From a virus, in the IMG/VR virus record IMGVR_UViG_3300046536_000032, positions 1 to 31,119 of that record: 31,119 nucleotides of DNA; one strand, written 5' to 3'. A program made the position numbers and the translations under genes. The notes under the pieces were generated by a model. That model was not told the DNA's origin and ran no database searches. It saw nothing but the letters and a program-made list of their open reading frames with translations. This document shows, in pieces, positions 4,187-25,474 of the stretch (its first letter is position 1; each line of letters starts with the position of its first letter).

Positions 4187-7100
4187 ATGCCGTACAAGAG
4201 TGCTGCACAGCGCCGGTTCATGCACGCTCGCCACCCGGACATCGCCTCCCGCTGGGACGCTGAGATCAGGACCGCGAAGAAGAAGGGGAAGTACCGCAAG
4301 CCGCCCGAGCGGGTCGAGAAGATGTCGGCCAAGGACTCCGGCTGGCTGAAGCCCGTCATCGCCGGCACGGTCGCTGGTGGACTGGCCAACCAGTTCCCGC
4401 GCGTGCAGGACATCGAGCGAGCCCATCGTCGGAAGAAGAAGGGGCTCGTGAAGAAGATGCTGCTCCCGCTCTCCGACGACCCTGACTTCAACCAGGAGGC
4501 TGCTCAGCGGGCGTTCGACCTGGTGATGAAGATGGACGATGACACCGCCGAGATGTTCACCCACATCATGGTGGCCGAGCTGTTCACCGACGACATCGAG
4601 AAGAATCTCGGTGCTCTGCAGCACCACCTGGACGACGTGATCGCCAAGCGCGTCGAGCTGATCAAGCAGTCCCACCTCCGGATGGTCAGCAAGGGCATGG
4701 ACCCCGAGCAGTCGGTGGCCTACGCCCAGGCGCTGGCGCTGATCTCCAAGGCCGTGGAGTGGGAGGAGAAGCTCCACCCCCGTGGTACGGCTGGTCGGTT
4801 CCGGACCAAGATCACCCACAACCAGGCCAAGGAGCTGCACCCGAAGACGGCACAGGCTCTGTTGGGTGTGGACACTCCCAGCCATCACCAGGCCTCGAAC
4901 CACAAGCTCACCTCACCGGAGCGCACCCAGTTCCAGGATGAGTACCGGCAGCTGGCCGACTTCCTGTCCTCGGTGAACCAGTCCACCGGTGGGAGCGGCA
5001 ACCACGAGGTGACCCTGCACTTCCAGGACCGCACTGGTCGCCAGTTCATGGAGCGGATGACGGGCACCCGCCCGGACGCTCAGCTCCTGGCTGACCCCAG
5101 CCTGACTCTGATCGGAGCCGAGGCTCGTCCGACCACGCTCACCGCTGGTGGTGCTGCCTTCGGTCTGGCTGGTGCGATGGGCACCAACATGTCTCCGTCC
5201 CAGGTCGGGGTGGTGAACGCTGCCAGCCGCAGTGGTGGCGCGTTCGCCGACCAGTGGACCCAGGCTGGGGATGCTGCACACTCCAACGCCAAGCTCTACG
5301 GCCGTACGGCTGCGGCTGGTCAGTTCCTGAGTGCAGTCGGTCCTCCGGGATCCAAGGCTCAGCTCGCCGGCAAGTTCGCCGAGATCGTCGGGAACGCGGG
5401 CCCGCAGGCGGAGAACGTGCTCGGTCCCACAGCCCGGAAGACCGCCTACCGGTACCGGGGCACCGAGAAGACCCCGGACACCGAGCTCGTGCGCTCGTAC
5501 GGGACGGGCATCGAGCAGGGCAAGCAGGCCGGTGTGGAGACCGGTGGCGCTCCGCTGTCGATGACCCAGATGGTGGCTCGTCGGAAGGCTCTGTCGGACC
5601 GTGCTCCTACCTGGGATGAGCGGGAGCTGGGCCGTCGCGCGGTGCTGTCGAACCTCCGGGAGACGCTGCCCAGCCAGGGGCTGTACGCCCTGCAGCTGGC
5701 CTCTGGGAACACTCCGCCCTCCGAGGGCGTGATCATCAACGCCGATGGGCAGCTGGCCACTCAGGCAGTGGGCTACGCCGATGACCACTACCTGCCGTTC
5801 AACCTGAAGAACCTGAAGGCGCTGAAGGGCGGGGAGTACATCCGGACTCGCTCGGTGGGCGGGCTGACCGCTGAGGACGTCTACACCGGTCTGATCTCCG
5901 GAGCACGCCAGGTCACGGTGACCTCGCGCTCGGGCACGTTCACCATGGAGTTCCAGGGTGACCTCCGTGGTGGTCGCCGGTACTCCGACAAGGCGCGTCG
6001 GATGACCCGGCGCTACGAGCAGATCCTGGACGCGGTGCAGTCCGGGCAGGTGGAGCGGGCTCAGATCCCGCCCGAGATCAAGGCCACCATCGCGCGGCAG
6101 GTCCGGGAGCAGAACCCCGGCGAGGGCAACGTGACGATCCGAAACATCATCAAGGAGCGGGAGAAGGAGTACCGAAACGACCCGGAGCTGAGCGATGTCG
6201 ACGAGCAGGCCGCTCGACACCTGGCGATGGCCCGGTTCAACGACGACAACTCACCGGAGTCCAAGGCCTTCATCCGGCAGCGCCTGAACGACCTGCAGCG
6301 GAAGAAGCAGGTCAACTGGCAGCTGAACGGGGATGGGTACAAGGCTGCACTGGACGCGCTGGCCGAGCAGTTCCCGTACTACATCAAGACCGACTCGCAC
6401 GTCCTGGACGACGAGGACAAGACCAGCCTGGAGCCGGACCGTGGCTACGTGGAGCCGGGGCGGAACCGGCCCACTGCGGCTCGGGGTGTGGGGCTGTACG
6501 GCACCACGATCAACCCCGGACTGAAGCGAGAGGGTCTCGCGGCTTCCACGGCCTCGCGCGCGGACTACCAGCGCGGTCGGTTCGAGCCTCGATCCAAGCC
6601 CGAGAGCGAGACCACTGAGGCGGGCGAGAAGAAGGAGGAGTCCAAGGACTCGCCCAAGAAGTTCGCTGCCCAGGTGGCCCAGGACATCAAGCACCGGACA
6701 GCGGCCGACTCGCTGTACGACGGGATGCAGTCTCCCCAGGTCGGGGAGAAGGTGAAGGCTGCCTTCCCCTGGCTGAACGACCGGGACCAGTACAACAAGA
6801 TGATGGAGTCGCCCGAGGGTCCGGCTGCTGTGGACGCGCTGGTGTCCGCGATCACTCCGAACCTGTCGGCGTTCCCGCAGGAGGTGCAGAACGCGGCACG
6901 GGCCTGGAAGATCTCTGGCGTTCCGGTCGGTGACCAGAAGTTCGTGGCTGGCCGTTGGCCGACGACACCGATCCCCTTCTCAGGCCCAGGGTTCCAGAAG
7001 GGCGCACCGTTGGAGGCCCAGCAGGCTGCTTTCCGACAGGTCAACTCTGAGTACGGGCGGAGCTTGAAGTTCGGTGGCAATATCGGCTCGCTGAACGATG

Positions 7101-7693
7101 CCCAGCTGAAGCAGGAGCATGACTCTCTGGTGGGTGTGCTGCGCGCGATCCGGGCCAACCCGGACATGGTGCAAGCGGCCAACGAGCAGGGTGCTGAGGT
7201 CCGCCGGCAGATCGCTGCGGAGTTCTACGACAGCGCTGCTCCGGACACCGTGGCCACTCTGATGAAGCGGCCCGAGCAGATCGAGCACCAGATGCTGAAC
7301 CTCCAGAAGATGCGGACGCTGAAGGCGAACGGGTCTTGGCCGGAGGGCACCGAGTACCAGCACACCGCTCGGGTGCCTGGTGTGTTGAACGAGGCTCAGC
7401 CGGCTGCTCCGATCTTCCGCACCGAGAACAGCGCAGACATCGTCGACGCCGAGGTAGTCGAGGAGCCGGTCAGCAATGAGCCCGAGCGCGCGAAGATGAT
7501 GAAGCAGATGACTGACCAGCTGGCTCGTACGGCTGGACATCGACTGCGGCAGAAGCCGGAGGCGGAGTGGTCTGAGTCTGACTACGACCTGGACACCGCG
7601 CTGAAGGACTACGCCGAGAACCCGCCGGCCAACTCAGCTGAGCTGGATGCCGTCCATGAGCACCTGTACGACCTGCACCGCCGGTCCATCTGA
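4187..7693 (+). CDS. Large unknown structural protein (1168 aa) between portal and MuF
   Basis: I do not recognise the family of the whole protein. The N-terminus (MPYKSAAQRRFMHARHPD, then IASRW) matches a motif common in short stand-alone phage proteins, here fused to a long polypeptide. A hydrophobic Gly/Ala segment follows at about 55-68, next to a basic run (RRKKK). Residues 100-190 look helical. A short motif 'EW....HPRG..GRF' lies at 191-205 and recurs in the next gene. Residues 315-420 are Gly/Ala-rich. A compact, conserved-looking block spans about 510-615 (EGVIINADGQLATQAVGYAD, then LPFNLKNLKALKGGEYIRTR and a beta-rich stretch). The rest is helical and charged. Overlap with the MuF gene (TGATG) and position between portal and MuF suggest a virion head or vertex protein. 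No enzyme signature was found. Confidence 0.8.
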   Translation: MPYKSAAQRRFMHARHPDIASRWDAEIRTAKKKGKYRKPPERVEKMSAKDSGWLKPVIAGTVAGGLANQFPRVQDIERAHRRKKKGLVKKMLLPLSDDPDFNQEAAQRAFDLVMKMDDDTAEMFTHIMVAELFTDDIEKNLGALQHHLDDVIAKRVELIKQSHLRMVSKGMDPEQSVAYAQALALISKAVEWEEKLHPRGTAGRFRTKITHNQAKELHPKTAQALLGVDTPSHHQASNHKLTSPERTQFQDEYRQLADFLSSVNQSTGGSGNHEVTLHFQDRTGRQFMERMTGTRPDAQLLADPSLTLIGAEARPTTLTAGGAAFGLAGAMGTNMSPSQVGVVNAASRSGGAFADQWTQAGDAAHSNAKLYGRTAAAGQFLSAVGPPGSKAQLAGKFAEIVGNAGPQAENVLGPTARKTAYRYRGTEKTPDTELVRSYGTGIEQGKQAGVETGGAPLSMTQMVARRKALSDRAPTWDERELGRRAVLSNLRETLPSQGLYALQLASGNTPPSEGVIINADGQLATQAVGYADDHYLPFNLKNLKALKGGEYIRTRSVGGLTAEDVYTGLISGARQVTVTSRSGTFTMEFQGDLRGGRRYSDKARRMTRRYEQILDAVQSGQVERAQIPPEIKATIARQVREQNPGEGNVTIRNIIKEREKEYRNDPELSDVDEQAARHLAMARFNDDNSPESKAFIRQRLNDLQRKKQVNWQLNGDGYKAALDALAEQFPYYIKTDSHVLDDEDKTSLEPDRGYVEPGRNRPTAARGVGLYGTTINPGLKREGLAASTASRADYQRGRFEPRSKPESETTEAGEKKEESKDSPKKFAAQVAQDIKHRTAADSLYDGMQSPQVGEKVKAAFPWLNDRDQYNKMMESPEGPAAVDALVSAITPNLSAFPQEVQNAARAWKISGVPVGDQKFVAGRWPTTPIPFSGPGFQKGAPLEAQQAAFRQVNSEYGRSLKFGGNIGSLNDAQLKQEHDSLVGVLRAIRANPDMVQAANEQGAEVRRQIAAEFYDSAAPDTVATLMKRPEQIEHQMLNLQKMRTLKANGSWPEGTEYQHTARVPGVLNEAQPAAPIFRTENSADIVDAEVVEEPVSNEPERAKMMKQMTDQLARTAGHRLRQKPEAEWSESDYDLDTALKDYAENPPANSAELDAVHEHLYDLHRRSI

Positions 7694-9648
7694 TGACAGC
7701 AACCCCGTACGTCGAGCTCAGGTTCAACCCGACTGATCTGCGGCCCCGGGACCTCCCCAAGACGGCGGAGTTCCTGGGGAAGCCATCGGACGCGATAGAG
7801 GCTGCGCTGTGGGCTGCTCGGATGCGGATGATCGAGGAGCTGAGGGACGAGGTCCGGGGGATGGTAGAGCCCACCCAGGCCTCGCTGCTGCGTGCTGCTG
7901 ACCTGGCCTGGCAGGCAGTGTTCTGGCGGTACCGGAAGATCTCAGCCCCGATCATGGCCGATGCCTACATCCGCGCGTACCGGGCTGCTGGAGCCGGTGA
8001 TGTGCCGATGAGCGTGATCTACGACCTGGCTGACAAGCATGCGGAGAAGATCGGGGACTACTTCCACAACACCTCTCGTGACGCGCTGGCCGAGGGCTTC
8101 AACACCCTGGTCAACCGCAGGGTGCCAGCCAAGGCTGCGGCGGATCGAATCCTGGATGCCTACGGACTGACCCCGCGCCAGATGCGTGGGTTCACCTCGA
8201 ACAAGCAGCTCATGATGTCGGTGGAGTCGGTCTCTCCGCTGGACGTGAAGGCTCGCGCGCGGGCCTACATCGACCGCTCCTTCACCCAGCGAGTCCGGAA
8301 GCTGGCGAACCAGGAGGAGCACAACATCGACGAGCAGGCGAAGCAGTTCGCCTGGATGTGGATGCAGGACAAGGGGAAGATCTCCCCCAACGCTCAGAAG
8401 ATGTGGGTCACCGCTCACGACGAGCGGGTCTGCCCGGTGTGCGGGCCTCTGCACGGTCAGAAAGTGGGGGTCAACGAACAGTTCCGGTCCCACGTCGGAC
8501 AGTTCTGGACACCTGGCCTGCACCCGAACTGCCGGTGCGTGGTGCGGCTGATCGAGAACCGGTTCTCCAAGGTGCTGGTCCGCAAGGACGACTGGGACCC
8601 CAGGGAGCACCCGCGCGGGGGCGACCCGGAGAATCGTGGTCGGTTCTCTCGGGTGGCCGAGCGGCCTCAGGGAGACGTGATCAACATCGCGGAGCCTGAT
8701 GTGATCGCGCCGGCTTCTCCGGTAGCTGACATCTTGGACAGCGTCCTGGCGGACATCCAGCTCCAGGCTGGAGCGTTGCGCCCGATCGCAGACATCGTGG
8801 CTCCTGCAGACATCACTGCACCGGTGGTTGACATCACTCTGCCGGTGGCGGACATCGACGTGGCTCCAGTAGCAGACATCGCAGACGCTCCGGTAGCAGA
8901 CATCCTGGGGCTGCTGCGAACGACACCCGTGGCTCCGCAGGTCTCCGACATCACGGTGGTCCAGAAGCCCAAGAAGAGGTTTGTTCAGTACCAGCATGTT
9001 CGCGACTTGTCGCAGCCCTACTACGCAGTCGTGGAGGGTGCTGTTGGTTCCCACCAGTTCGACCAGACGACCTTCTCTGCTGACCGGGAGCAGGTGATTA
9101 ACGATGCTGCGGACACCCGAGAGAACGTGATCAACGACATCATGCGAACACACGTCGTCGGCGGGGAGGTGAAGTACTCCGAGATGGTGGGCTCTTACGG
9201 TGTGCCTCTGCAGGCTCGGATACCTGCTGAGGAGTTCCGGAACATTCTGGAGGCTGCGGCACAGCACTACACGTCGGAACCGCCATACGACGCGATGATC
9301 GACGTGGACTACTACGACCCAGACGGCCAGGAGGGGGACGCTCCGATTGAGACCACTGGGCGGACGGTGCTGGACATCATTCACGCGGTGGGTGTCGACG
9401 CCGATCATCTAGAGGTCAGCGTGGTGATGTTGGACCAGGTGCACTCCGAGGACGTTGGTCGAGGAACTGCCCAGCGTGGTGAGCGTGTGGGACATCTATA
9501 CGACCAGTACGACGTCACCGGAGATTACGTGGTGAACGACTGGCAGCCGGAGTACGAGGAAGGCACGGGGACCCCGAACGGGGTAGACATCTACTACATC
9601 CAGCCTCACGATCCAGCCACCGGCTGGATGGAGGAGCCCGCCGACTAG
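7693..9648 (+). CDS. MuF-like minor head protein with repeat linker and unknown C-terminal domain
   Basis: Residues 1-320 form a phage Mu protein F-like head morphogenesis protein: a long helical N-terminus, then the diagnostic block at 238-287 with a CPVC pair (C247, C250) and HPNCRC (H277, C280, C282), a likely metal-binding cluster. MuF proteins attach near the portal and are often internal to the capsid. A 'HPRG....GRF' motif lies at 306-318. From about 335 to 420 comes a linker built on nine variants of P-V-A-D-I. Residues 428-651 form a separate acidic C-terminal domain with many Asp/Glu and few Lys, of no family I recognise. MuF proteins are known to carry variable C-terminal effector domains, so this could be cargo. 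The start ATG overlaps the previous stop as TGATG. Confidence 0.85.
   Translation: MTATPYVELRFNPTDLRPRDLPKTAEFLGKPSDAIEAALWAARMRMIEELRDEVRGMVEPTQASLLRAADLAWQAVFWRYRKISAPIMADAYIRAYRAAGAGDVPMSVIYDLADKHAEKIGDYFHNTSRDALAEGFNTLVNRRVPAKAAADRILDAYGLTPRQMRGFTSNKQLMMSVESVSPLDVKARARAYIDRSFTQRVRKLANQEEHNIDEQAKQFAWMWMQDKGKISPNAQKMWVTAHDERVCPVCGPLHGQKVGVNEQFRSHVGQFWTPGLHPNCRCVVRLIENRFSKVLVRKDDWDPREHPRGGDPENRGRFSRVAERPQGDVINIAEPDVIAPASPVADILDSVLADIQLQAGALRPIADIVAPADITAPVVDITLPVADIDVAPVADIADAPVADILGLLRTTPVAPQVSDITVVQKPKKRFVQYQHVRDLSQPYYAVVEGAVGSHQFDQTTFSADREQVINDAADTRENVINDIMRTHVVGGEVKYSEMVGSYGVPLQARIPAEEFRNILEAAAQHYTSEPPYDAMIDVDYYDPDGQEGDAPIETTGRTVLDIIHAVGVDADHLEVSVVMLDQVHSEDVGRGTAQRGERVGHLYDQYDVTGDYVVNDWQPEYEEGTGTPNGVDIYYIQPHDPATGWMEEPAD
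8716..8952 (+). repeat. Nine degenerate P-V-A-D-I repeats coding a linker
   Basis: Within the MuF-like gene, codons for a V/I-A-D-I core recur about nine times (residues 342-420: PVADI, VLADI, PIADI, PADI, PVVDI, PVADI, PVADI, PVADI, QVSDI) at irregular spacing of roughly 5-16 residues. The nucleotide copies are related (for example gtagcagacatc occurs twice) but have drifted. The Pro/Val/Ala/Asp/Ile composition suggests an extended linker between the MuF head domain and the C-terminal domain. Confidence 0.8.
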
Positions 9649-9670: not shown

Positions 9671-10666
9671 ATGAGCGACATCCACGAGCTGCTGGCCACG
9701 GACGAGACGTTCCGCGAGGTCGCTGATCTGCTGTTCGGTGGCGGAGGAGATGAGCTCATCTCCAAGATCAGCCCGACTCAGTCTGATCTGGCCACTCACG
9801 ACAAGCGCAAGCGCATGACCACTGCGGGTCTGAGCGCTATCGGAGCCACGGCTGGTGCAGCTGGTCTGGGTCTGGCCGGCAAGGAGACCTACCACGGGAT
9901 CAAGAACGCCCCGAAGGGCCTGTCGGCGACCGGAAAGCTCGTGCACGCGGCGAAGACCAAGAAGCTCGCCACTGCGCTGGTCCCGCTGGAGGTGGCAGGC
10001 CTGGGTGGTGAGCTGATGGCCACCAAGATCCTGCACGGAGACACCAAGAAGAAGATCCCGGTCTCCAAGGCCTCCGACCTGCTGCTGAACAACGCCAGCG
10101 AGATCCCCACCTCCAAGGGCAAGCTGACCCGGGCTGTGATCTCCAGCCCCAAGGTCCGGAAGAAGGGGGTGGAGTACACCAAGAAGGGCGCGGGTGTGCT
10201 GAAGCGAGTCCCGGACAAGCTGGTCACCCACCACAAGGTCGAGAAGGCCGACACCGAGATCGACGTGGTCTGGGAGGGCGACTTCGCCAAGGCCGACGCT
10301 GACAAGCAGCAGGTCTTCGGCTGGGCCAGCGTGGTAGAGGTGGACGGCCAGCCGGTGGTGGACCTGCAGGGCGACTACATCTCCACCGACGAGATGGAGA
10401 AGGCTGGCTACCAGTACGTGATGAAGTCCCGGAAGGGTGGCGACATGCACCTGAGGGACAACTGGGCTCCGATCCAGAAGTCGGAGATGATCGAGAGCTT
10501 CATCGTCACCCCCGAGAAGCGGGACGCGATGGGCCTGCCGGACTCGGTGCCGACCGGCTGGTGGGTCGGGTTCCAGGTCCAGGACCAGCAGGTCTGGAGC
10601 GACATCAAGGACGGGAAGCGGACCGGGTTCTCCATCCACGGTCACGGGAAGCGGAGCCCGGCATGA
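9671..10666 (+). CDS. XkdF-like prohead protease with hydrophobic N-terminal extension
   Basis: The C-terminal part (about residues 190-331) matches the PBSX XkdF-like putative serine protease: the entry segment DKQQVFGWASVV, 'DLQGDYIS.DEME.A.Y', GGDMHLRD with H260, a conserved IESFIVTPEK with S276, 'PTGWWVGFQV' and the ending TGFSIHGHGKR. H260 and S276 are the likely catalytic pair. Such proteases process scaffold and capsid proteins during head maturation. The N-terminal 190 residues are not typical: a helical start, a Gly/Ala-rich hydrophobic stretch at about 50-70 (TAGLSAIGATAGAAGLGLAG) and a Lys-rich, probably helical region. The protein stops right after the protease domain, where many relatives continue into a scaffold part. 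The next gene overlaps by ATGA. Confidence 0.8.
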   Translation: MSDIHELLATDETFREVADLLFGGGGDELISKISPTQSDLATHDKRKRMTTAGLSAIGATAGAAGLGLAGKETYHGIKNAPKGLSATGKLVHAAKTKKLATALVPLEVAGLGGELMATKILHGDTKKKIPVSKASDLLLNNASEIPTSKGKLTRAVISSPKVRKKGVEYTKKGAGVLKRVPDKLVTHHKVEKADTEIDVVWEGDFAKADADKQQVFGWASVVEVDGQPVVDLQGDYISTDEMEKAGYQYVMKSRKGGDMHLRDNWAPIQKSEMIESFIVTPEKRDAMGLPDSVPTGWWVGFQVQDQQVWSDIKDGKRTGFSIHGHGKRSPA

Positions 10667-12021
10667 GCCTCTCAGCCTTCGGGATCGACCACGGTGGCAT
10701 CTCCAAGGCCGAGGACCCGAACCGGAAGAAGCAGGTCGCTGTAGCTGCCGGCGGCACTGCTGCGGCGGGCGGAGTCGGACTGGCTGCGACCAAGATCCCT
10801 GAGCACTCCCACTACGACAAGAAGACCCGGAAGTACCTGCACTCGCTCCCCGCGGGCGAGCACGAAGTGCCGACCTCGATGCTGTCGACGCGACCCAGGA
10901 AGCTCGGTGCTCGGAAGCAGCAGGCTCCGTACGTGGCAGCGATGGCGCAGGAGCGTCCGCTGGAGTCCTTCCACGCCTCTCCGGTCCCGGTCACCCGATA
11001 CAAGGGCAAGGGCCACCCCACCATCCAGCGGGACAACGCGCACACGGTGATGGCCAACGCGATGAAGGGCCGCACCACCAAGATCAAGATCGAGGATGCT
11101 CCTGGCTACCGCCCGAACCGGAGGACTGGCGAAGAGCTGGTCAGACGCGGGCAGATGCGGTATCAGCAGCGCCGGCTGAAGCTGCACACCAACCTCTCGG
11201 AGAAGGCGATCGAGGGGATCCGAGGGAAGTACACCGACAAGTCCCGAGCGGCCAACACGACCAAGCGCCCGCACGGGGTGGTAGAGGACACCCTGAAGTA
11301 CAACCCGAAGAAGTACTCGGTGGCCCGAGCGGTGGGACGAGCCGGGAACCTCGCGGCAGTGGTGAAGAGGGATGATCGCCGGGGGCGAGACACAGCCGCC
11401 GGCGTCACCGGGGCGGCTGGGGTAGGAGCGCTGGCATCTACGCCGGTGCGGCGCTCAGCGGCCAAGGTGGATGTCTCCGGCGGCTCGATGAGCGCGTCTG
11501 ACGCCAAGAAGGTCGTCTCTCCTGGATACCGCCCTGGGAACAAGCGCGCGATCCGGACGATGGCCGCGAACCTGGGTCACCTGGAGAACAAGCCCACCAC
11601 GGTGGTCAGGTACAAGGGCGGACACGTGGTCCCCTTCGACGGGAACCACCGAGCCTCTGCTCGGGTCGCACGCGGGGACGCACGAGTCCCGGTGAACGTG
11701 GTCGAGGGCGGCGAGCGCCCTGCGGTCTCCGTGGCTCGGAACGCCTACCACGTCGCTCAGCAGAAGGTGCACCAGTCGCGGCTGGACCGGGACGTGTTCA
11801 AGCCCAACTCCAAGATCGGCCGGCACGCTGGTGAGACCAAGGCCTACTCTGCGATCGCCAACGCATCTCCGCTCCGGTCCGGGAAGCGAGTCGCGATCGG
11901 GTCCACCAAGCTAGGTTCGGGCCCGACCAAGGCAGTGTTGAGGACCAAGCAGGGTCTGGCGCTGGGTGCCAGTGCCGCGCTACTGGGTACCTCTGCTCAC
12001 CTGCACAGGAAGAAGAGCTGA
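10663..12021 (+). CDS. Tagged virion-type protein with tandem ParB-like segments
   Basis: The start is the ATG at 10663, which overlaps the protease stop as ATGA; an in-frame ATG at 10561 lies inside the protease gene and is unlikely. The 452-residue product begins MSLSAFGIDHGGISK, the tag shared with three other proteins here. A hydrophobic Gly/Ala segment follows at 25-43. Residues 284-350 show a ParB/sulfiredoxin-like layout: a strand TTVVRYKGG, then PFDGNHRASARVARGDARVP (D326-R330 in the position of the ParB GERR box), then VNVVEGG. An earlier copy at about 86-145 (VTRYKGKGHP...RDNAHTVMANAMKG) looks like a degenerate duplicate. A second Gly/Ala segment lies near 244-259. The C-terminus is a hydrophobic helix plus basic end (LALGASAALLGTSAHLHRKK). 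Proteins with this fold include CTPases and nucleases; the activity here is unknown. Confidence 0.75.
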   Translation: MSLSAFGIDHGGISKAEDPNRKKQVAVAAGGTAAAGGVGLAATKIPEHSHYDKKTRKYLHSLPAGEHEVPTSMLSTRPRKLGARKQQAPYVAAMAQERPLESFHASPVPVTRYKGKGHPTIQRDNAHTVMANAMKGRTTKIKIEDAPGYRPNRRTGEELVRRGQMRYQQRRLKLHTNLSEKAIEGIRGKYTDKSRAANTTKRPHGVVEDTLKYNPKKYSVARAVGRAGNLAAVVKRDDRRGRDTAAGVTGAAGVGALASTPVRRSAAKVDVSGGSMSASDAKKVVSPGYRPGNKRAIRTMAANLGHLENKPTTVVRYKGGHVVPFDGNHRASARVARGDARVPVNVVEGGERPAVSVARNAYHVAQQKVHQSRLDRDVFKPNSKIGRHAGETKAYSAIANASPLRSGKRVAIGSTKLGSGPTKAVLRTKQGLALGASAALLGTSAHLHRKKS

Positions 12022-12896
12022 TGAAGCCACTCATGAGCGACGCGGAGATGCGTCGTCGGCAGAAGCTGCAGGGCAAGATCGGCCGGACCACCTCCACGCT
12101 GGGCCTGTCCGGAGTGGCGCTGACCGGTGCTGCGATCGCGACCAAGAAGAAGCCAGGCGCGCTGAAGGCAGTCACCAAGGTCCCAGGACTCAGCCGAGTC
12201 AGCCATGGTGGTCTGAAGAACGCCGCCTTCCACACCTCGATCGCGGCTGGCGGCATCGGCGGTGTAGGAGGGTTCAACCAGGCAGCGATCTACTCGGCAG
12301 AGTCCAGGAAGCGCAAGGCAGCGACTGTGGTGAAGAAGGAGTTCGGCATGGAGATGGGCTACTACGGGGAGGAAGGCCGTCCCCTCACTCACCAGCAGAT
12401 CGAGGCCGAGATCGAGAAGGCCTGGACGCCATCGGCCTCCAACTTCGACTCCGAGCGTAGCCGGCACCGACGTACTGGTGCCTATCAGGCCGGGGCCATG
12501 GCAGCTGCCGGTGCTGGTGGTGCGTACGCCGCCCGGCACGGGGTGAAGGCCGTACAGCAGGGCAAGAAGATCCAGTCGATCCCGGACTCGGCTCAGATCA
12601 AGACGGTCGAGGAGACGGTCAGGCCGAAGGCAGGCAAGGAGTTCACCCGGAACGTGAAGCGGGCCGGGAAGACGTTCCGGGCTCTCGACGCGGACGTGGT
12701 CGGGCGGACCCTGAAGCATGGGGGCAAGGCCGGGCTCGGGCTGGCGGCGGTCGGTGGCGCGGCTGCCACTCACTCCGCGATCAACCGAAAGAAGAGCGGT
12801 TCCTGGCAGTCGTACGCCAAGCGCGATGCCACATCAGCGTTCGGAGTCGATCACAGCGACAACCCGAATGGACAGCACCGTGAGACTGAGAACTAG
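12021..12896 (+). CDS. Tagged unknown protein with four Gly/Ala-rich hydrophobic segments
   Basis: This 291-residue protein has no family I recognise. Hydrophobic Gly/Ala segments occur at about residues 26-40, 71-90, 156-171 and 236-251, each flanked by Lys/Arg clusters, which suggests membrane insertion or tight packing inside the virion. After the last segment comes a basic NRKKS, and near the C-terminus (272-278) the peptide SAFGVDH, otherwise found at the N-termini of its neighbours. The start overlaps the upstream stop by one base (TGATG). The gene lies between the ParB-like protein and the scaffold-like protein, within the capsid assembly block. A role as an internal or ejected virion protein is inferred from context and the shared motifs only. 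Confidence 0.7.
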   Translation: MKPLMSDAEMRRRQKLQGKIGRTTSTLGLSGVALTGAAIATKKKPGALKAVTKVPGLSRVSHGGLKNAAFHTSIAAGGIGGVGGFNQAAIYSAESRKRKAATVVKKEFGMEMGYYGEEGRPLTHQQIEAEIEKAWTPSASNFDSERSRHRRTGAYQAGAMAAAGAGGAYAARHGVKAVQQGKKIQSIPDSAQIKTVEETVRPKAGKEFTRNVKRAGKTFRALDADVVGRTLKHGGKAGLGLAAVGGAAATHSAINRKKSGSWQSYAKRDATSAFGVDHSDNPNGQHRETEN

Positions 12897-14156: not shown

Positions 14157-15155
14157 ATGCCGAACCCCACTCAGAGCGATCTCCACGTCAACGTGCCGCT
14201 GACCAACGTCAGCGTTGCGTACATGCAGGACAAGGCGCAGTTCATCGCGGACAAGGTCTTCCCGCGTGTGCCAGTGCAGAAGCAGAGCGATCTGTACTGG
14301 AAGTACTCCAAGTCCGACTGGCGCAGGACCGACGCGCAGAAGCGCGCCCCCGGCACCGAGACGGCTGGAGTCGGCTGGAAGGTCGACACGGGGCAGTACT
14401 TCTGCGAGGTCTGGGGTGTCCACAAGGACATCGACGACCAGGTCCGCGCGAACGCCGACTCGAACTGGAGGCTCGACTCTGACGCCACCACGTTCGTCAC
14501 CAACCAGCTCCTGCTCCGGCGGGACCTGGACTGGAACGCCAAGTTCTTCACCACCGGCCAGTGGGGTACCGACCTCGCCGGCGTGACCGGGACGGTCGGC
14601 GCAGGGCAGTTCCTGCAGTGGAGCGACCCGGCCTCGGACCCGATCGTGCAGTTCTCCGACCTGCAGACGAACTTCGTGGAGCAGTCAGGCCGCAAGGCCA
14701 ACACGCTGGTCCTCGGTGCTCGGACGATCACCCAGCTGAAGAACCACCCGGACATCATCGACCGCATCAAGTACACCCAGCGTGGTGTGGTGACCACCGA
14801 CCTCCTCGCGTCGCTCTTCGACGTCGAGCGGATCCTGGTCAGCTACGCGACGGTGACCGGTGTGGCCGAGCTGAACGACGCCAAGGCGCAGGACGCTGCC
14901 GCGACGTACAGCTTCATGTCCAACTCCAAGTCGGCGCTGCTGGTCTACACCCCCAGCTCGCCGTCCCTGATGACCCCGGCCGGCGGCTACACCTTCACCT
15001 GGAACGGGTACCTGGCTGGCAACAGCTACGGGATCCGGATGAAGAACTTCCGGATGGAGCCGATCGCTGCGGACCGCATCGAGGGCGAGATGACCTACGA
15101 CATGCGGGTGGTCGCCAAGGACATGGGCATCTTCCTGTCCAACGCGGTGGCGTAG
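14157..15155 (+). CDS. Major capsid protein
   Basis: This 332-residue protein sits after scaffold and cement genes and is followed by a strong hairpin, as expected for the most abundant virion protein. Its sequence has the organisation of HK97-fold capsid proteins of the E-like type: an N-terminal arm, 'AQFIADKVFPRVPVQKQSDL' and 'YWKYSKSDW', then 'RRDLDWNAKFFTTGQW', a central 'LVLGARTITQLKNHPDIIDR' helix-strand unit and a C-terminal 'EPIAADRIEGEMTYDMRVVA' strand region typical of the P-domain/A-domain end. A very good ribosome site (GAGGAGAG, about 14143-14150) precedes the ATG. No long N-terminal delta domain is present, in line with a separate scaffold protein. The family assignment is by pattern; the role is well supported by context. 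Confidence 0.9.
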   Translation: MPNPTQSDLHVNVPLTNVSVAYMQDKAQFIADKVFPRVPVQKQSDLYWKYSKSDWRRTDAQKRAPGTETAGVGWKVDTGQYFCEVWGVHKDIDDQVRANADSNWRLDSDATTFVTNQLLLRRDLDWNAKFFTTGQWGTDLAGVTGTVGAGQFLQWSDPASDPIVQFSDLQTNFVEQSGRKANTLVLGARTITQLKNHPDIIDRIKYTQRGVVTTDLLASLFDVERILVSYATVTGVAELNDAKAQDAAATYSFMSNSKSALLVYTPSSPSLMTPAGGYTFTWNGYLAGNSYGIRMKNFRMEPIAADRIEGEMTYDMRVVAKDMGIFLSNAVA

Positions 15156-15768: not shown

Positions 15769-16070
15769 TGGAGAGCGCATTCGGCGTTGACCACGGCTCC
15801 GAGGAGATCTCGAAGCTGGGACTGAAGCCGCCTGGCATGGGCACGCTGAAGCCGATGGTCCAAGGGATGCAGAGCGCGTTCAAGATGGGCGCTCAGGGCG
15901 TGCACGGCCCAGCAGCTTCGGTTGGTGCTGGGCGCGCGATGGGCGCTGGTGCGATGACCCGCAAGGTCGGCCAGTTCGGGATGAAGAACAAGAAGCCGCT
16001 GGCCATCGGCGCAGGAGCAGCTGGCGCTGGTGCTGCTGGAGGCATGCTCACGAGCCGTAGGCGGTTCTGA
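15768..16070 (+). CDS. Small tagged protein A with hydrophobic C-terminus
   Basis: The ATG at 15768 overlaps the previous stop by one base (TGATG); a GTG one codon earlier is less likely. The 100-residue product begins MESAFGVDHGSEEISK, the tag shared with three other proteins in the window. The middle is Gly/Met/Lys-rich. The end is a single hydrophobic Gly/Ala segment (LAIGAGAAGAGAAGGML) capped by SRRRF. The C-terminal third aligns by eye with that of the next gene (VGQFGMKNKKPLAIG against VGRFMQNRPGLTGTA), so the two are probable paralogs from an old tandem duplication. The function is unknown; one transmembrane helix with a basic end suggests membrane or internal virion association. Confidence 0.7.
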   Translation: MESAFGVDHGSEEISKLGLKPPGMGTLKPMVQGMQSAFKMGAQGVHGPAASVGAGRAMGAGAMTRKVGQFGMKNKKPLAIGAGAAGAGAAGGMLTSRRRF

Positions 16071-19780: not shown

Positions 19781-22700
19781 GTGACGGCTCAGCCGGTTGA
19801 AGCCAACGTCGTACTGACGAGCGACAACTCTCAGTACGACCGGGCGATGACCACATCGGCTGGGAACACCGACAACCTGTCGATGTCGGTCGACAACCTC
19901 GGCCGCAAGATCAACAACCTCGCCAAGACCGCCGGCAAGACGCTGATCGGGATCAGCGCTGCCGACGTGGCCACGATCACGGGTGCCACTGCGGCCTGGT
20001 CCAGCTACGAGAAGCAGGTGTCTCGGCTGCAGGCGCAGTCGGCGATCCTGACTCGTACCAACGCCCAGCAGACCCTGGTGATGAAGGACTACACCGCGGC
20101 GGTCAAGGGGCTGCGGACCGAGTACGGGACTACCACCAGCGAGGCCTCGAAGCTGGTGGAGACCCTGTCCAAGGTCACCAGCATGCGGCAGACCCGGGAC
20201 CTGCAGGACCTGAGCAAGGTCTTCGTGGACATGTCCCACGCCACCGGTGAGAGCTCCGATGGCCTGGCCTCCTCGCTGACCAACCTGCAGCGGGTGATGG
20301 GCACCCCGATCAACTCCAAGAACACTCGGCAGTACGCCGACCAGTTCACCTACCTGGCTGCCCAGACCAACACCTCGGCCCAGGGTCTGATCGACTTCAC
20401 CTCCCAGCTGGCTCCGGCCGGGCGGCAGATCGGGATCACCTCGAACCAGATGGCCGGGTTCGCCACCGCCTTCGCCAAGGCTGGCCAGGACAGCGGACCC
20501 GCAGCCACCGTCTTCACCAAGATCACCACCGACATCGCGCACTCGATGCAGACCGGGTCTCCGGAGATCGCGCACTACGCCAACATGCTGGGGGTCACCC
20601 AGAAGGCGTTCAAGGCGATGTCGGGTGGCGAGCAGGTCGTCGCGATCCTGCAGAACCTGCAGGACCGGGGCAAGGGCGCTGCTACCGAGCTGAGTCGGCT
20701 GGGTCTGGACGGACCTCGTTCGATCCGAGCGATCCAGGCAGTGCTGCAGCAGGGTGGTCTCGCGGAGTCGATGCAGCTGGCGACGAGTGGCGGGTCCAAG
20801 GGCGCTGCTGCTGAGGGTGCTGCTGCCTCCACCAAGGGTCTGTCCGACGAGGTCAACAGGCTGACCCAGAACTTCCAGCAGCTGGCCGAGACCATGGGTG
20901 GCTACTTCGGGCCGGTCATGGAGAAGTTCCTCCAAGGCATGAACAAGGCCCTGGAGGTGGTCAACAAGATCGCTGAGGGCCCGATGGGCAAGTTCGTGGC
21001 CCTGGTCATGACCGTGGTAGCTCCGCTGGCCAGTGGAGCCGGGATGCTGCTGCTCTTCGCCGGTGCGCTGATGAAGGTGGCTACGGCCTTCGCGGCGTTC
21101 CGTTCCAGCGCGGCGTACGGCATCCGCGAGGGCTTCGCGGGTGGTGGACCACTGGGCTCAGGAGCTGCGGGCCTGCGCGGGCAGCAGCTGGAGCAGGCTG
21201 GCACCTGGTTCCAGCGGGCCCAGTATCGCGGTGGTCAGACTGCTGGCAGCCTGGCTTCCAGTGCGTTGGGTGCTGCTCGTGGGGGATGGCAGACCGCGCG
21301 AGGCTGGGCTGACCCGAACTACACCCCGGGACCGCCGCGGAGCGCGCTGTCCTACATGGCTGGCGGACTGGGTCGTGGGATCGACATGTTCCTGACCCCG
21401 ACCTTCGACCAGATGCGGTACGCCGACCCGACCAAGCGCGAGCGCAGCCGGTTCTGGCAGCGGACCCAGATGGGACAGAGCGCGGCTGTCTCCGACGCCG
21501 CGGCCACCGCTGACGCGGCCAGGGAGCGAGCGCGCACTGCTGGCGCGGTCTACCAGTCGATGCTGGGCTCGCAGGGCGCGAGCGCTGATCAGACCGAGCA
21601 GGCTCGGCGGGACATGCACCGGGCCAACCAGGAGGCGCTGTCGACCACGCGAGCCTCGGTCGCTGCTCAGAAGGACCAGATCGCGACGGTTCAGCGGCTG
21701 AACCAGGAGACCGGCAACACCACCACCGGGTTCCGCCGGCTCGCCCAGTCCGCTGGCGGGTTCGCGGCTGGTGCCGGCGGCGGAGTCCTGGGAGCTGGCC
21801 GGGCGGGGCTCAGCGCCCTGGCGCGTTCCCCGATCGCTGGGAACATCGCGTTCGGGCTGGGTGGGGCGGCACTAGGGGCTGCTGGCGTCCAGTCGCAGGC
21901 GCTGATGTTCGGTGCGATGGGCGGGATGATGGGCGGGGCTCCGGGTGCTGTCGCCGGTGGCGTGATCGGGGCGGCTCTGGACGCTCGGCAGCGGACCCAG
22001 AACTTCAACCAGATCGTGGCTGCTCGGCAGCAGGCACTGAGGGAGGGTCTACCGTCCGGGATCCTCTCCGCGAACCAGGCTGCGACGTCGGAGTTCCAGC
22101 CGTACCAGCAGTACCAGCAGGAGAGCATCTGGGGTCGGCTCACTCATCCGGGGTCGATCGTCGGGAACGTCGGACGAGGGTTGGGCTCCGCCTGGCAGTT
22201 CGCCAGTGGCGGCGGCGACGCCTACAAGACCAGGCAGGACCAGGCCGACGCGGCCAAGACGCAGTCCACAGCCCTGATCGGCGCGTTGACCGACGTCTCG
22301 CGGCGGCAGGGCGTGTCGCTGAAGGGCATCGACCCCACCACCCAGTCCGGCATGGCCAAACTGGACGAGGTCACCAACAAGCTCGCTCCGACCATGGAGA
22401 AGCTGGGGATCACCACCGACGACATCGTCAAGGCCTACCAGGGTCGAGGCACCTCGGGTGGAGCGCAGACCTGGAAGACCATGATGGGGAACCTGGTCAG
22501 CCCGGACCAGGCACTGGGGTACATCAGCGCAGCAGGGGGCACGGCTGCTGGCGCGGCGATGGCAGACTCCGCGTCGGCTCGTCGGTCGATCCGGCTCCAG
22601 GAGGACGTCGGGGCCTTCTACAACGCCACCAGCGACATCTTCAGCAAGCTGCACAAGCAGGGGCTGACCGACCAGCAGATCATGGCCTCGACCGAGAAGG

Positions 22701-25474
22701 CGCAGGCCCGGATCGGAGACGAGAACAGCCGCTCCTACGAGCTGCAGATGGCGGTCTCCCAGAAGGCCCAGCAGAACATCCAGATGCAGATGCCGCTGAT
22801 GACCCGGGCCCAGCAGTTCCAGGCCACCATCGGTCAGATGAACGCGCTGAGTGGGATCACTCCGCGCACCCAGGAGCAGGCTGCCCAGCTGGAGCAGCAG
22901 AAGACGGCCACCGCCCAGGGGTTCGTCGACCAGGCGTCCTACTTCAAGCAGCTGCTGCTGATGCAGGACCAGTACGAGATCCAGCGAACCCGGGCCCAGC
23001 AGGACTACAGCCTGCAGCGCTCCTACCAGGAGCACGACTACCAGCTCCAGCGCTCCCGGCAGGAGTACCAGTTTCACCTCTCCCAGAACCGAGCCACAGC
23101 GGACTACTACCGGAGCGTGCGTCGGGCGCAGTACGACTTCAACCTGCAGCGCAGCCGGAGCGAGGCCGACTACCAGCACTCGGTGTCGGTCCAGGCCAAG
23201 CAGATGGCGCAGAGCGTCTACGACATCTACTCCAGGGTGCAGGTACAGCGGACCAGTTCGGCCTCACAGATCCTGAGCAACGCTGCTGACCAGCTCCAGC
23301 GGATGCGCCAGCAGGAGTCGGACCTGCAGCGACTCCGGGCCATGGGTGCCTCGGACTCCATGATCCAGCAGATGAAGTTCACCGACCCCCAGAACCAGCA
23401 GCAGCTGGCTCGGTTCCTGACCGAGGCCACTCCGCGGGTGATCAGGCAGTTCAACCAGGTGGCCGGGTCTCTGCGAGAGGGTGCGGCCAAGGCACTGGCG
23501 ACTGACCCGTCCTCGCTGGACTGGCAGGAGCAGCAGCGCTCGCATCGGCTCCAGATGCAGCGGTCTCGGCAGGACTTCCAGCGCCAGCTGGAGCTCGGTC
23601 ACGAGGACTTCGCGCGCTCGCTGAGCCGGCAGCGCAAGGACTTCAACCTGATGATGGACCAGCAGGCCACCGACTTCAGCACCCAGATGGGACGCCAGGC
23701 GGACGCCTACCAGCTGTCCATGCAGCGCTCAGCTCAGGACCTGGCCAACGTCGGCAAGGAGATCGACGGGAACTTCGAGAGCACCTTGGTCCAGGCCACG
23801 AAGCGGCTGTCTGGACACGCGCAGGCGCAGGCCGCGGCAGTGCTGAAGTCCTTCACGACCCTGAAGTCCTCCACCAGCGCCCAGGCAGTGGCCACCATGA
23901 AGGACCTGGCCTCGATCTTCGGGTTCAAGTACCAGGCTCCGGCTGGCATCAACACCACTCCGGTCTCGACTCCCCGGGGTACCCAGGACATGTCGTTGCA
24001 CGGCACGGGTGGCCACGTCGTGGGTGGCAACGCCGAAGGTGGGATCGTCCCCGGCTGGTCCCCAGGCCGTGACGACAAGATGGTCCCGCTCTCCGGTGGC
24101 GAGGCGATCATGCGTCCGGAGTGGGCTCGCGCGATGGGTGGAGCGGCGATCGACGCGATGAACCACGCTGCCAAGCACGGCGGACTCGCGGCCGGCGGGA
24201 TCTACCGGCCGATCAAGGAGCCGGTGTCGCGTGGTCTGCACGACCAGTTCACCGGGTACAGCGCAGTCGACTTCGCAGCTCCGGTGGGCATGCCGGTCTA
24301 CGCAGTGGCTGGTGGCCGGATCTCTCGGTCCTACGACATCCCTGGTCCGCTGCCCAGTGACAGCTACCACGACCCCAAGTACGGCCCGTACGGCTCCTAC
24401 GGGCGGGTGATGTACCTGAAGACCGACATGGGTCCTGAGGTGCTGTACGCGCACCTGTCCAAGCGCGGTTTCGGCCAGGGAGCCATGGTGAGCGCCGGCC
24501 AGCCGATCGGGCTCTCGGGCTCAGCTGGTAACTCCTCCGGCCCGCACCTGCACTTCGGTGACAACGACGGGAACCCGTACGAGTTCATCACCGGTGCTGG
24601 TCGCGGGGCTGGCACCATCAACGGCTTCGTGGGCGGTCAGGTAGCGAGCACTCGGGCCCAGCTGAGGAAGGTCTTCAAGAGGCTCTATCCTGACGCTGAG
24701 AGGGCGGCGTGGGACATGCAGGGCGTGCACCCGCTGAACCCTGGCGACATCTCCTCGGTGATCAACCAGATGGGCCGCGACGTCGTGCGGAGGATCCGCC
24801 AGGACTCCACCGACACTGCAGGTGTCGGGGCGACCAACCTGGGCCGCGCTCCATCCGGGAACCTGTCCAACGAGGCGATCGTGCACACCGCGGCGAACCG
24901 GATGGGTTGGGGCAAGGAGTGGAGCGCGCTGCGTCAGATCGTGATGCACGAGTCCGGGTTCAACAACACCGCCCAGAACCCGAACAGCACGGCGTACGGG
25001 ATGTTCCAGTTCCTGGACTCGACCTGGGGCAACTACGGAGGTCACAAGACCTCTGACCCGTGGCTGCAGGCCAAGTACGGGATGAACTACATCAGGGACC
25101 GGTACAACGACCCGAACGGGGCCTGGAACTTCTGGCAGTCCCACAACTGGTACGGCGACGGCTCGGTGTTCACCAGCCCGAACATGATCGGGGTCGGGGA
25201 GAAGGGCCCCGAGGCGGTGATCCCTCTCAACGACCGAGGCGGGGAGTTCCTGACCAAGGCGATGATGGGTGTGGACGCGCGTCGGATCGGGATGAGCAGC
25301 ACTCCGGTGGGTGGCGGGCTGCATGTCTTCAACACCCGGATCGACAAGTCCACCAACTTCACCGGCCCGATCACGGTCCAGGCCAACGACCCCAACGAGC
25401 TGCTGAACAAGCTGCAGGCTCGCCAGCGGGTGATGGCCCTGAGCCGGCCATCCCTGACAGGATCAGCTGCATGA
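19781..25474 (+). CDS. Tape measure protein with M23 peptidase and SLT domains
   Basis: This 1897-residue protein fixes tail length and fills the tube until ejection. It has a GTG start at 19781, 3 bases after the chaperone stop. The N-terminal 400 residues are helical. Hydrophobic Gly/Ala-rich stretches lie at about 402-437 and 660-733. Gln/Arg-rich helical repeats of the form 'dy.LQRsrqE' occur at about 1065-1150 and 1250-1323. The C-terminus carries an M23 endopeptidase (about 1475-1605; VDFAAPVGMPVYA with D1497, YAHL, HLHF with H1589 and H1591) and a lytic transglycosylase-like SLT domain (about 1690-1790; MHESGF with E1724, then 'AYGMFQFLDSTW'). These enzymes probably open peptidoglycan during DNA entry. 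Typical tape-measure motifs (SGGEAIMRPEW near 1430 and GEKGPEAVIPL near 1805) flank the enzyme part. Confidence 0.95.
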   Translation: MTAQPVEANVVLTSDNSQYDRAMTTSAGNTDNLSMSVDNLGRKINNLAKTAGKTLIGISAADVATITGATAAWSSYEKQVSRLQAQSAILTRTNAQQTLVMKDYTAAVKGLRTEYGTTTSEASKLVETLSKVTSMRQTRDLQDLSKVFVDMSHATGESSDGLASSLTNLQRVMGTPINSKNTRQYADQFTYLAAQTNTSAQGLIDFTSQLAPAGRQIGITSNQMAGFATAFAKAGQDSGPAATVFTKITTDIAHSMQTGSPEIAHYANMLGVTQKAFKAMSGGEQVVAILQNLQDRGKGAATELSRLGLDGPRSIRAIQAVLQQGGLAESMQLATSGGSKGAAAEGAAASTKGLSDEVNRLTQNFQQLAETMGGYFGPVMEKFLQGMNKALEVVNKIAEGPMGKFVALVMTVVAPLASGAGMLLLFAGALMKVATAFAAFRSSAAYGIREGFAGGGPLGSGAAGLRGQQLEQAGTWFQRAQYRGGQTAGSLASSALGAARGGWQTARGWADPNYTPGPPRSALSYMAGGLGRGIDMFLTPTFDQMRYADPTKRERSRFWQRTQMGQSAAVSDAAATADAARERARTAGAVYQSMLGSQGASADQTEQARRDMHRANQEALSTTRASVAAQKDQIATVQRLNQETGNTTTGFRRLAQSAGGFAAGAGGGVLGAGRAGLSALARSPIAGNIAFGLGGAALGAAGVQSQALMFGAMGGMMGGAPGAVAGGVIGAALDARQRTQNFNQIVAARQQALREGLPSGILSANQAATSEFQPYQQYQQESIWGRLTHPGSIVGNVGRGLGSAWQFASGGGDAYKTRQDQADAAKTQSTALIGALTDVSRRQGVSLKGIDPTTQSGMAKLDEVTNKLAPTMEKLGITTDDIVKAYQGRGTSGGAQTWKTMMGNLVSPDQALGYISAAGGTAAGAAMADSASARRSIRLQEDVGAFYNATSDIFSKLHKQGLTDQQIMASTEKAQARIGDENSRSYELQMAVSQKAQQNIQMQMPLMTRAQQFQATIGQMNALSGITPRTQEQAAQLEQQKTATAQGFVDQASYFKQLLLMQDQYEIQRTRAQQDYSLQRSYQEHDYQLQRSRQEYQFHLSQNRATADYYRSVRRAQYDFNLQRSRSEADYQHSVSVQAKQMAQSVYDIYSRVQVQRTSSASQILSNAADQLQRMRQQESDLQRLRAMGASDSMIQQMKFTDPQNQQQLARFLTEATPRVIRQFNQVAGSLREGAAKALATDPSSLDWQEQQRSHRLQMQRSRQDFQRQLELGHEDFARSLSRQRKDFNLMMDQQATDFSTQMGRQADAYQLSMQRSAQDLANVGKEIDGNFESTLVQATKRLSGHAQAQAAAVLKSFTTLKSSTSAQAVATMKDLASIFGFKYQAPAGINTTPVSTPRGTQDMSLHGTGGHVVGGNAEGGIVPGWSPGRDDKMVPLSGGEAIMRPEWARAMGGAAIDAMNHAAKHGGLAAGGIYRPIKEPVSRGLHDQFTGYSAVDFAAPVGMPVYAVAGGRISRSYDIPGPLPSDSYHDPKYGPYGSYGRVMYLKTDMGPEVLYAHLSKRGFGQGAMVSAGQPIGLSGSAGNSSGPHLHFGDNDGNPYEFITGAGRGAGTINGFVGGQVASTRAQLRKVFKRLYPDAERAAWDMQGVHPLNPGDISSVINQMGRDVVRRIRQDSTDTAGVGATNLGRAPSGNLSNEAIVHTAANRMGWGKEWSALRQIVMHESGFNNTAQNPNSTAYGMFQFLDSTWGNYGGHKTSDPWLQAKYGMNYIRDRYNDPNGAWNFWQSHNWYGDGSVFTSPNMIGVGEKGPEAVIPLNDRGGEFLTKAMMGVDARRIGMSSTPVGGGLHVFNTRIDKSTNFTGPITVQANDPNELLNKLQARQRVMALSRPSLTGSAA
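22973..23230 (+). repeat. Gln/Arg helical repeats in tape measure protein
   Basis: About eight short units with aromatic and Gln-Arg-Ser positions (such as DYSLQRSYQE, DYQLQRSRQE, DFNLQRSRSE) follow each other in a long helix. A second group of similar units lies at about 23529-23750 (LQMQRSRQDF, RQRKDFNLMM, YQLSMQRSAQDL). Tape measure proteins often show repeated helical units that set tail length. Confidence 0.6.

Follow-up and report, generated by a model that had tools for sequence, protein, structure and literature searches.

DdrB, a ParB-domain protein, is present in the P1 head (PMC9024508, PMC5512222), and the N-terminus of another P1 protein, DarB, is capsid-targeting (PMC9024508). 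The internal proteins of T-even phages also carry their packaging signal at the N-terminus (PMC12373910). In ParB-fold proteins the arginine of box II is needed for NTP binding, and a survey of the fold detected no NTP binding in 17 of the 28 proteins that were purified (PMC12704722).

The window analysed here, the whole 31,119-nucleotide stretch, is a metagenomic 31-kb IMG/VR contig of a soil phage. Its gene at 10663–12021 encodes a 452-residue accessory protein for which P1 DdrB is the nearest described system. The protein carries two predicted domains of the ParB/sulfiredoxin (Srx) type in tandem, one with and one without the box II arginine.

Genomic setting of the tandem-domain protein

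Annotation with Pfam and PHROGs places the gene in a late block that runs from terminase through portal, an unknown protein of 1168 residues, a MuF protein and an XkdF-type protease to the 10663–12021 product. On its 3' side follow a tagged unknown, scaffold-like, cement and major capsid genes, and then neck, tail tube and tape measure. The gene begins with a start codon that overlaps the protease stop, and its own stop overlaps the start of the next gene. The features are as follows.

7693–9648, plus strand: MuF-type minor head protein; a ParB/Srx domain stands at its C-terminus in the relative L063
9671–10666, plus strand: XkdF-type prohead protease (Peptidase_S78_2); fused to a ParB/Srx domain in relatives
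10663–12021, plus strand: 452-residue accessory protein with tandem ParB/Srx domains, as translated
10672–10692, plus strand: N-terminal tag SAFGIDH, found again on many of the clade's head-block proteins
10735–10791, plus strand: weak Ala/Gly-rich hydrophobic stretch, residues 25–43, with a mean hydropathy of 1.44; a doubtful membrane segment
10810–11112, plus strand: domain 1, residues 50–150, predicted ParB/Srx fold lacking the arginine of box II
11032–11046, plus strand: degenerate box D124-N-A-H-T128 of domain 1, with T or S for the arginine in all six relatives
11446–11757, plus strand: domain 2, predicted ParB/Srx fold with intact box, residues 262–365
11638–11652, plus strand: box II (GxxR), D326-G-N-H-R330, at the strand-to-helix turn of domain 2
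12021–12896, plus strand: next gene, with a C-terminal tag SAFGVDH at 12834
14157–15155, plus strand: major capsid protein (phrog_1005), anchor of the gene block

The initial annotation had placed the product among capsid-assembly genes, and the order of protease, MuF and capsid genes bears this out. It had also described the protein as tagged and as containing a membrane segment. The tag is present at the N-terminus and recurs in the head block; the membrane segment is weak, being a single Ala/Gly-rich stretch with a Kyte–Doolittle mean of 1.44. Elsewhere in the window, the 1168-residue protein between portal and MuF (4187–7693) had no match in Pfam and PHROGs scans, and the C-terminal part of the 1897-residue tape measure protein (19781–25474) contains peptidase- and transglycosylase-like regions.

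Single-sequence searches of Pfam, PHROGs and PDB with the 452-residue protein found no family, and the assignment of its fold therefore rests on relatives and structure. A tblastn search of phages gave one match (E = 9), in a Microcystis phage, to a protein that is ParB-like by an independent scan. About 180 related loci (numbered L below) were gathered with the protein and three of its neighbours as queries, and iterative HMM searches recovered relatives with two domains, with one domain, or with the domain fused to other proteins. The sole match in a genome contig (L200) was dropped, since the family HMM does not confirm it and phage context is absent.

Domain 2 retains the GxxR box

The translated frame of domain 2 reads TTVVRYKGG (residues 312–320), PFDGNHRASARVARGDARVP (324–343) and VNVVEGG (344–350), with D326, G327, N328, H329 and R330 just as first reported. 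The AlphaFold model follows the order β-α-α-β-β-α-β (pLDDT 74.5, pTM 0.65), and the first 39 ranks of a Foldseek search of it against the PDB are all sulfiredoxin, KorB, SbnI/SerK, ParB or Noc. Viral Foldseek matches that bear names are mostly ParB/sulfiredoxin. The models of both domains are of moderate confidence (pLDDT around 74, pTM 0.59–0.65), the best Foldseek E value being only about 4e-3. D326-G-N-H-R330 occupies a strand-helix turn of the domain 2 model, which is the place of the GxxR P-motif and agrees with its earlier assignment to the active-box position. Within it G327-N-H-R330 sits at the turn between strand 60–65 and helix 67–76 of the model, and its G, H and R are invariant among the relatives.

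Profile comparisons point the same way. A profile built from domain 2 with its relatives found six PDB sequences at E < 10, all of them SbnI or ParB, the best at E = 0.023. L145 has the domain fused to its protease, and the domain 2 HMM scored 32.6 there, with shuffles reaching at most 12.9; this fused domain itself matches ParB PHROGs at 3.2e-7, with many others, and PF02195 at 0.0085. In L063 the domain fused to MuF matches phrog_1033 (ParB-like) at 4.5e-6. A single-domain class with the box GGTHR occupies the same slot as 10663–12021 in related contigs; it is linked to domain 2 less strongly, with 58 of 2000 shuffles reaching the score in one direction and 0 of 2000 in the other. The curated threshold of Pfam PF02195, an annotation convenience rather than a physical property, is reached neither by the window protein, which has no match, nor by its relatives, which lie at only 0.0085–0.16. 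On the strength of the model and profile results, domain 2 is almost certainly of the ParB/Srx fold. Its predicted binding of NTP is about an even prospect. Nuclease or toxin activity gets no direct support; an NTP-binding role is the safer reading.

Domain 1 is a conserved copy without the arginine

The initial annotation had also noticed a second, arginine-less region, described it as a degenerate copy, and proposed to check both segments for a ParB/Srx fold. The region is real: it contains PVPVTRYKGKGHP and RDNAHTVMANAMKG within a domain of about residues 50–150, and its box reads D124-N-A-H-T128, so that the GxxR P-motif is replaced by N-A-H-T. The box is DNAH[T/S] in six of six relatives. 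Profile–profile comparison of the two domains gave P = 2.2e-4 over 86 columns, and with HMMs built from only one domain or the other, the other copy outscored all but 1 of 2000 shuffles in both directions. Structure comparison returned the proposed fold in domain 1 as it had in domain 2, with Foldseek ranks 1–45 in the PDB all ParB/Srx, the alignment behind this model having also included relatives of the domain 2 type. Domain 1 thus very probably adopts the modelled ParB/Srx fold.

Although described as degenerate, domain 1 is not decaying and is under about the same constraint as the intact copy: against the nearest relative its dN is 0.027 and its dN/dS 0.08, compared with 0.048 and 0.13 for domain 2, and in the remaining pairs of relatives its dN is likewise equal to or below that of domain 2. 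Going by the published effect of an arginine-to-alanine change in box II, which is a loss of NTP binding, domain 1 should not bind NTP. In L048 (6846–8731) the two ParB/Srx domains are encoded in separate, overlapping frames, which reflects either a contig error or a real split between the domains.

A recurrent tag on head-block proteins

The tag SAFG[VI][DE]H(G-x-[IV]-S-K-A) occurs in the window at 10672, 12834 and 15774, and in the degenerate form SAWGIEHGDAVSK at 16070. Across the related loci, which overlap one another, a loosened form of SAFG[VI][DE]H gave 365 matches on the plus strand and 1 on the minus strand. Eight long contigs contain 46 matches, which all fall on one strand per contig, mostly around the portal-to-capsid genes, and a reversed control pattern gave zero matches in the same contigs. 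The tag is found near the protein start or at the extreme end of some 189 distinct ORFs of the head block, mostly small and basic, which fall into about 55 otherwise unrelated clusters. A query with the tag in cultured phages gave no match. One tagged protein (L104:1508–1873) is a GNAT acetyltransferase (PF00583, 2.4e-6), and hence the tag occurs on enzymes too.

Tentatively, SAFG[VI][DE]H may be the general capsid-targeting peptide of this clade, which at either protein end would load swappable small proteins; the tandem ParB/Srx protein would then be an NTP-sensing member of the injected cargo. We hold this to be possible, with the odds somewhat against it.

An interchangeable slot between protease and capsid genes

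The 10663–12021 gene occupies an accessory slot flanked by the prohead protease gene and the capsid genes. In L010/L174, whose major capsid, scaffold and protease proteins are 98.5%, 95% and 89% identical to those of the window, two unrelated proteins with tags at their C-terminal ends replace it. Among contig clusters with protease plus scaffold or capsid genes, the domain was seen in 12 of 42 and no recognisable copy in 30 of 42, one cluster in this tally merging L174 with the window-like L002/L008 and the L174 class there not being used. Other tagged, Gly/Ala-rich proteins in the same slot (L174:525–2211, L022:2489–3529, L177:11224–12321, L017:6298–8712) gave nothing informative and no known domains in Pfam.

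The domain also occurs joined to neighbouring head proteins. It is fused at the C-side of the protease in L143 and L145, at the C-terminus of MuF in L063, and at the N-side of the protease in nine cultured phages of Rhizobium, which have a capsid protein of 45% identity. The protease and MuF act in the prohead, and the fusions therefore point to the head interior. In RHph_Y52 and the eight other Rhizobium phages the fusion (L189:9719–10456) is named 'DNA methyltransferase/prohead protease'; it has the appearance of a ParB-like domain plus an XkdF protease, and the methyltransferase part of its name, like that of phrog_1530, looks wrong. In L192, L194 and L195 a DGNHR ParB/Srx domain lies within proteins of 2300–3816 residues, as in polyvalent proteins.

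These fusions, to either side of the protease and to MuF, would also fit a protein that helps morphogenesis. It would work inside the prohead as the head is assembled, perhaps holding the protease, MuF or tagged cargo or controlling their timing, and would play no part after injection. P1 offers a parallel, DdrB being listed as an aid to the addition of DarB to the capsid (PMC9024508). Such help is not a general need of assembly, however, since a recognisable copy is absent from 30 of the 42 clusters and other genes take its place in a very close relative. We regard a pure assembly role as rather unlikely, although it is the most serious competitor to packaged cargo.

Other possible functions

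An injected, NTP-regulated nickase or nuclease directed against host or competitor DNA is a good deal less likely. The ParB-like domains of Osa, GmrS and a ParB-methylase have been reported as nucleolytic (as cited in PMC5512222), but Pfam shows no nuclease family here beyond the ParB/Srx box, and such an activity is unassignable because for this fold the sequence does not reveal even the nucleotide specificity.

A small-molecule enzyme of the SerK/SbnI or sulfiredoxin type, a serine kinase or a sulfinyl reductase, is suggested by the fact that SbnI and sulfiredoxin are the closest solved relatives by profile and fold. SerK and SbnI have a catalytic glutamate upstream of the box, and sulfiredoxin has a catalytic cysteine within its GCHR box. 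N328 stands at the position of that cysteine, and no conserved glutamate was found in residues 262–305 of six relatives, its position being judged from the sequence. We therefore consider this function highly improbable. That the motif is coincidental and the fold absent from both segments is more improbable still: the empty single-sequence searches of Pfam, PHROGs and PDB would fit such a reading, but profile, shuffle and fold searches converge on ParB/Srx. A genome-partition ParB of a plasmid-like phage, which would have the same N-terminal fold, can be dismissed, as neither an HTH nor a ParB dimerisation domain was detected with Pfam and PHROGs and the gene lies in the late head block. The identities of partition ParB, sulfiredoxin and serine kinase were accordingly rejected, their defining features being missing.

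Discussion

The computation shows the fold of both copies, the intact GxxR of the second, the conserved arginine-less first copy and the swappable slot between protease and capsid genes. The reading we favour, that of a packaged, NTP-binding, head-associated protein, falls a little short of an even chance when taken as a whole up to packaging. Weighing against it are the many ParB-fold proteins of the survey that bound no NTP, the moderate confidence of the models, the lack of a tag match in cultured phages and the 30 of 42 clusters in which no copy was recognised. Its parts differ in strength. The product probably associates with the head; delivery into the cell is a possibility that we would not yet bet on. 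Packaging is made more likely by the fusion of the domain to prohead protease and MuF, the recurrence of the tag and the swapping of the slot. The initial annotation proves right in its sequence observation, while its interpretation is supported in part only.

On the favoured reading, the protein would be a late accessory protein of a tailed phage, taken into the prohead by its N-terminal SAFGIDH tag together with other tagged proteins. Domain 2 would bind a nucleoside triphosphate via R330. Domain 1, without the arginine, would bind none and may serve as a fixed pairing or regulatory partner, making a built-in pseudo-dimer. Carried in the head, the protein would pass into the cell along with the DNA, and NTP binding there might switch its activity during the earliest minutes of infection. 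That activity would most plausibly protect or handle the entering DNA, much as the P1 Dar and T-even internal proteins do.

Most ParB/Srx-fold proteins of phages are unassigned. In this one phage lineage the fold turns up repeatedly in association with the prohead protease, MuF and capsid genes, either as a separate protein or as a fusion, and together with a conserved twin domain that lacks the arginine. Whether phage heads carry NTP-binding modules can here be tested concretely, and the related protease fusion in culturable Rhizobium phages provides experimental material for it.

Comparison with known systems

Several described proteins share the fold. SbnI/SerK, the free serine kinases that are the best PDB profile matches, have a DGxHR-type box in common with the window protein, which differs from them in size, in its phage head-block context and in having no conserved upstream glutamate. 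Sulfiredoxin, which gives the best Foldseek matches, has the single compact ParB/Srx fold and the GxHR box in common with the window protein, which has N328 in place of the catalytic cysteine and no peroxiredoxin context. The CTP clamps ParB, KorB and Noc have the same fold and GxxR P-motif; the window protein lacks their HTH, dimerisation domain and partition context.

Other comparisons come from phage systems. The RHph_Y52 group likewise joins a ParB-like domain to an XkdF protease, but the domain is single, the fusion is on the N-side, and no SAFG tag was found in that stretch. The T-even proteins Ip1–Ip3 (PMC12373910) are apparently non-homologous proteins with a common terminal capsid-packaging signal. 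The logic of the SAFG tag, here a candidate signal, resembles those N-terminal signals and that of P1 DarB (PMC9024508), although signal and proteins are unrelated to Ip1–Ip3 and packaging by the tag is putative.

P1 DdrB and the DdrB-like ParB of polyvalent proteins (PMC5512222, PMC9024508) likewise combine a ParB/Srx-superfamily domain with a head-associated late protein encoded beside structural genes, and P1, as may be the case here, has cargo with a capsid-targeting signal. None of 19 family members matched PF18763 (ddrB-ParB) at E up to 10, and the extra tyrosine-bearing helix of the DdrB type is absent, the domain 2 model running directly from helix 67–76 to strand 80–87. The window protein further differs from DdrB in having no peptidase domain and in carrying two tandem domains, one of them without the arginine. 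The kind of protein is already known, as in P1 DdrB, and the tandem arrangement with an arginine-less copy is a new variation of it.
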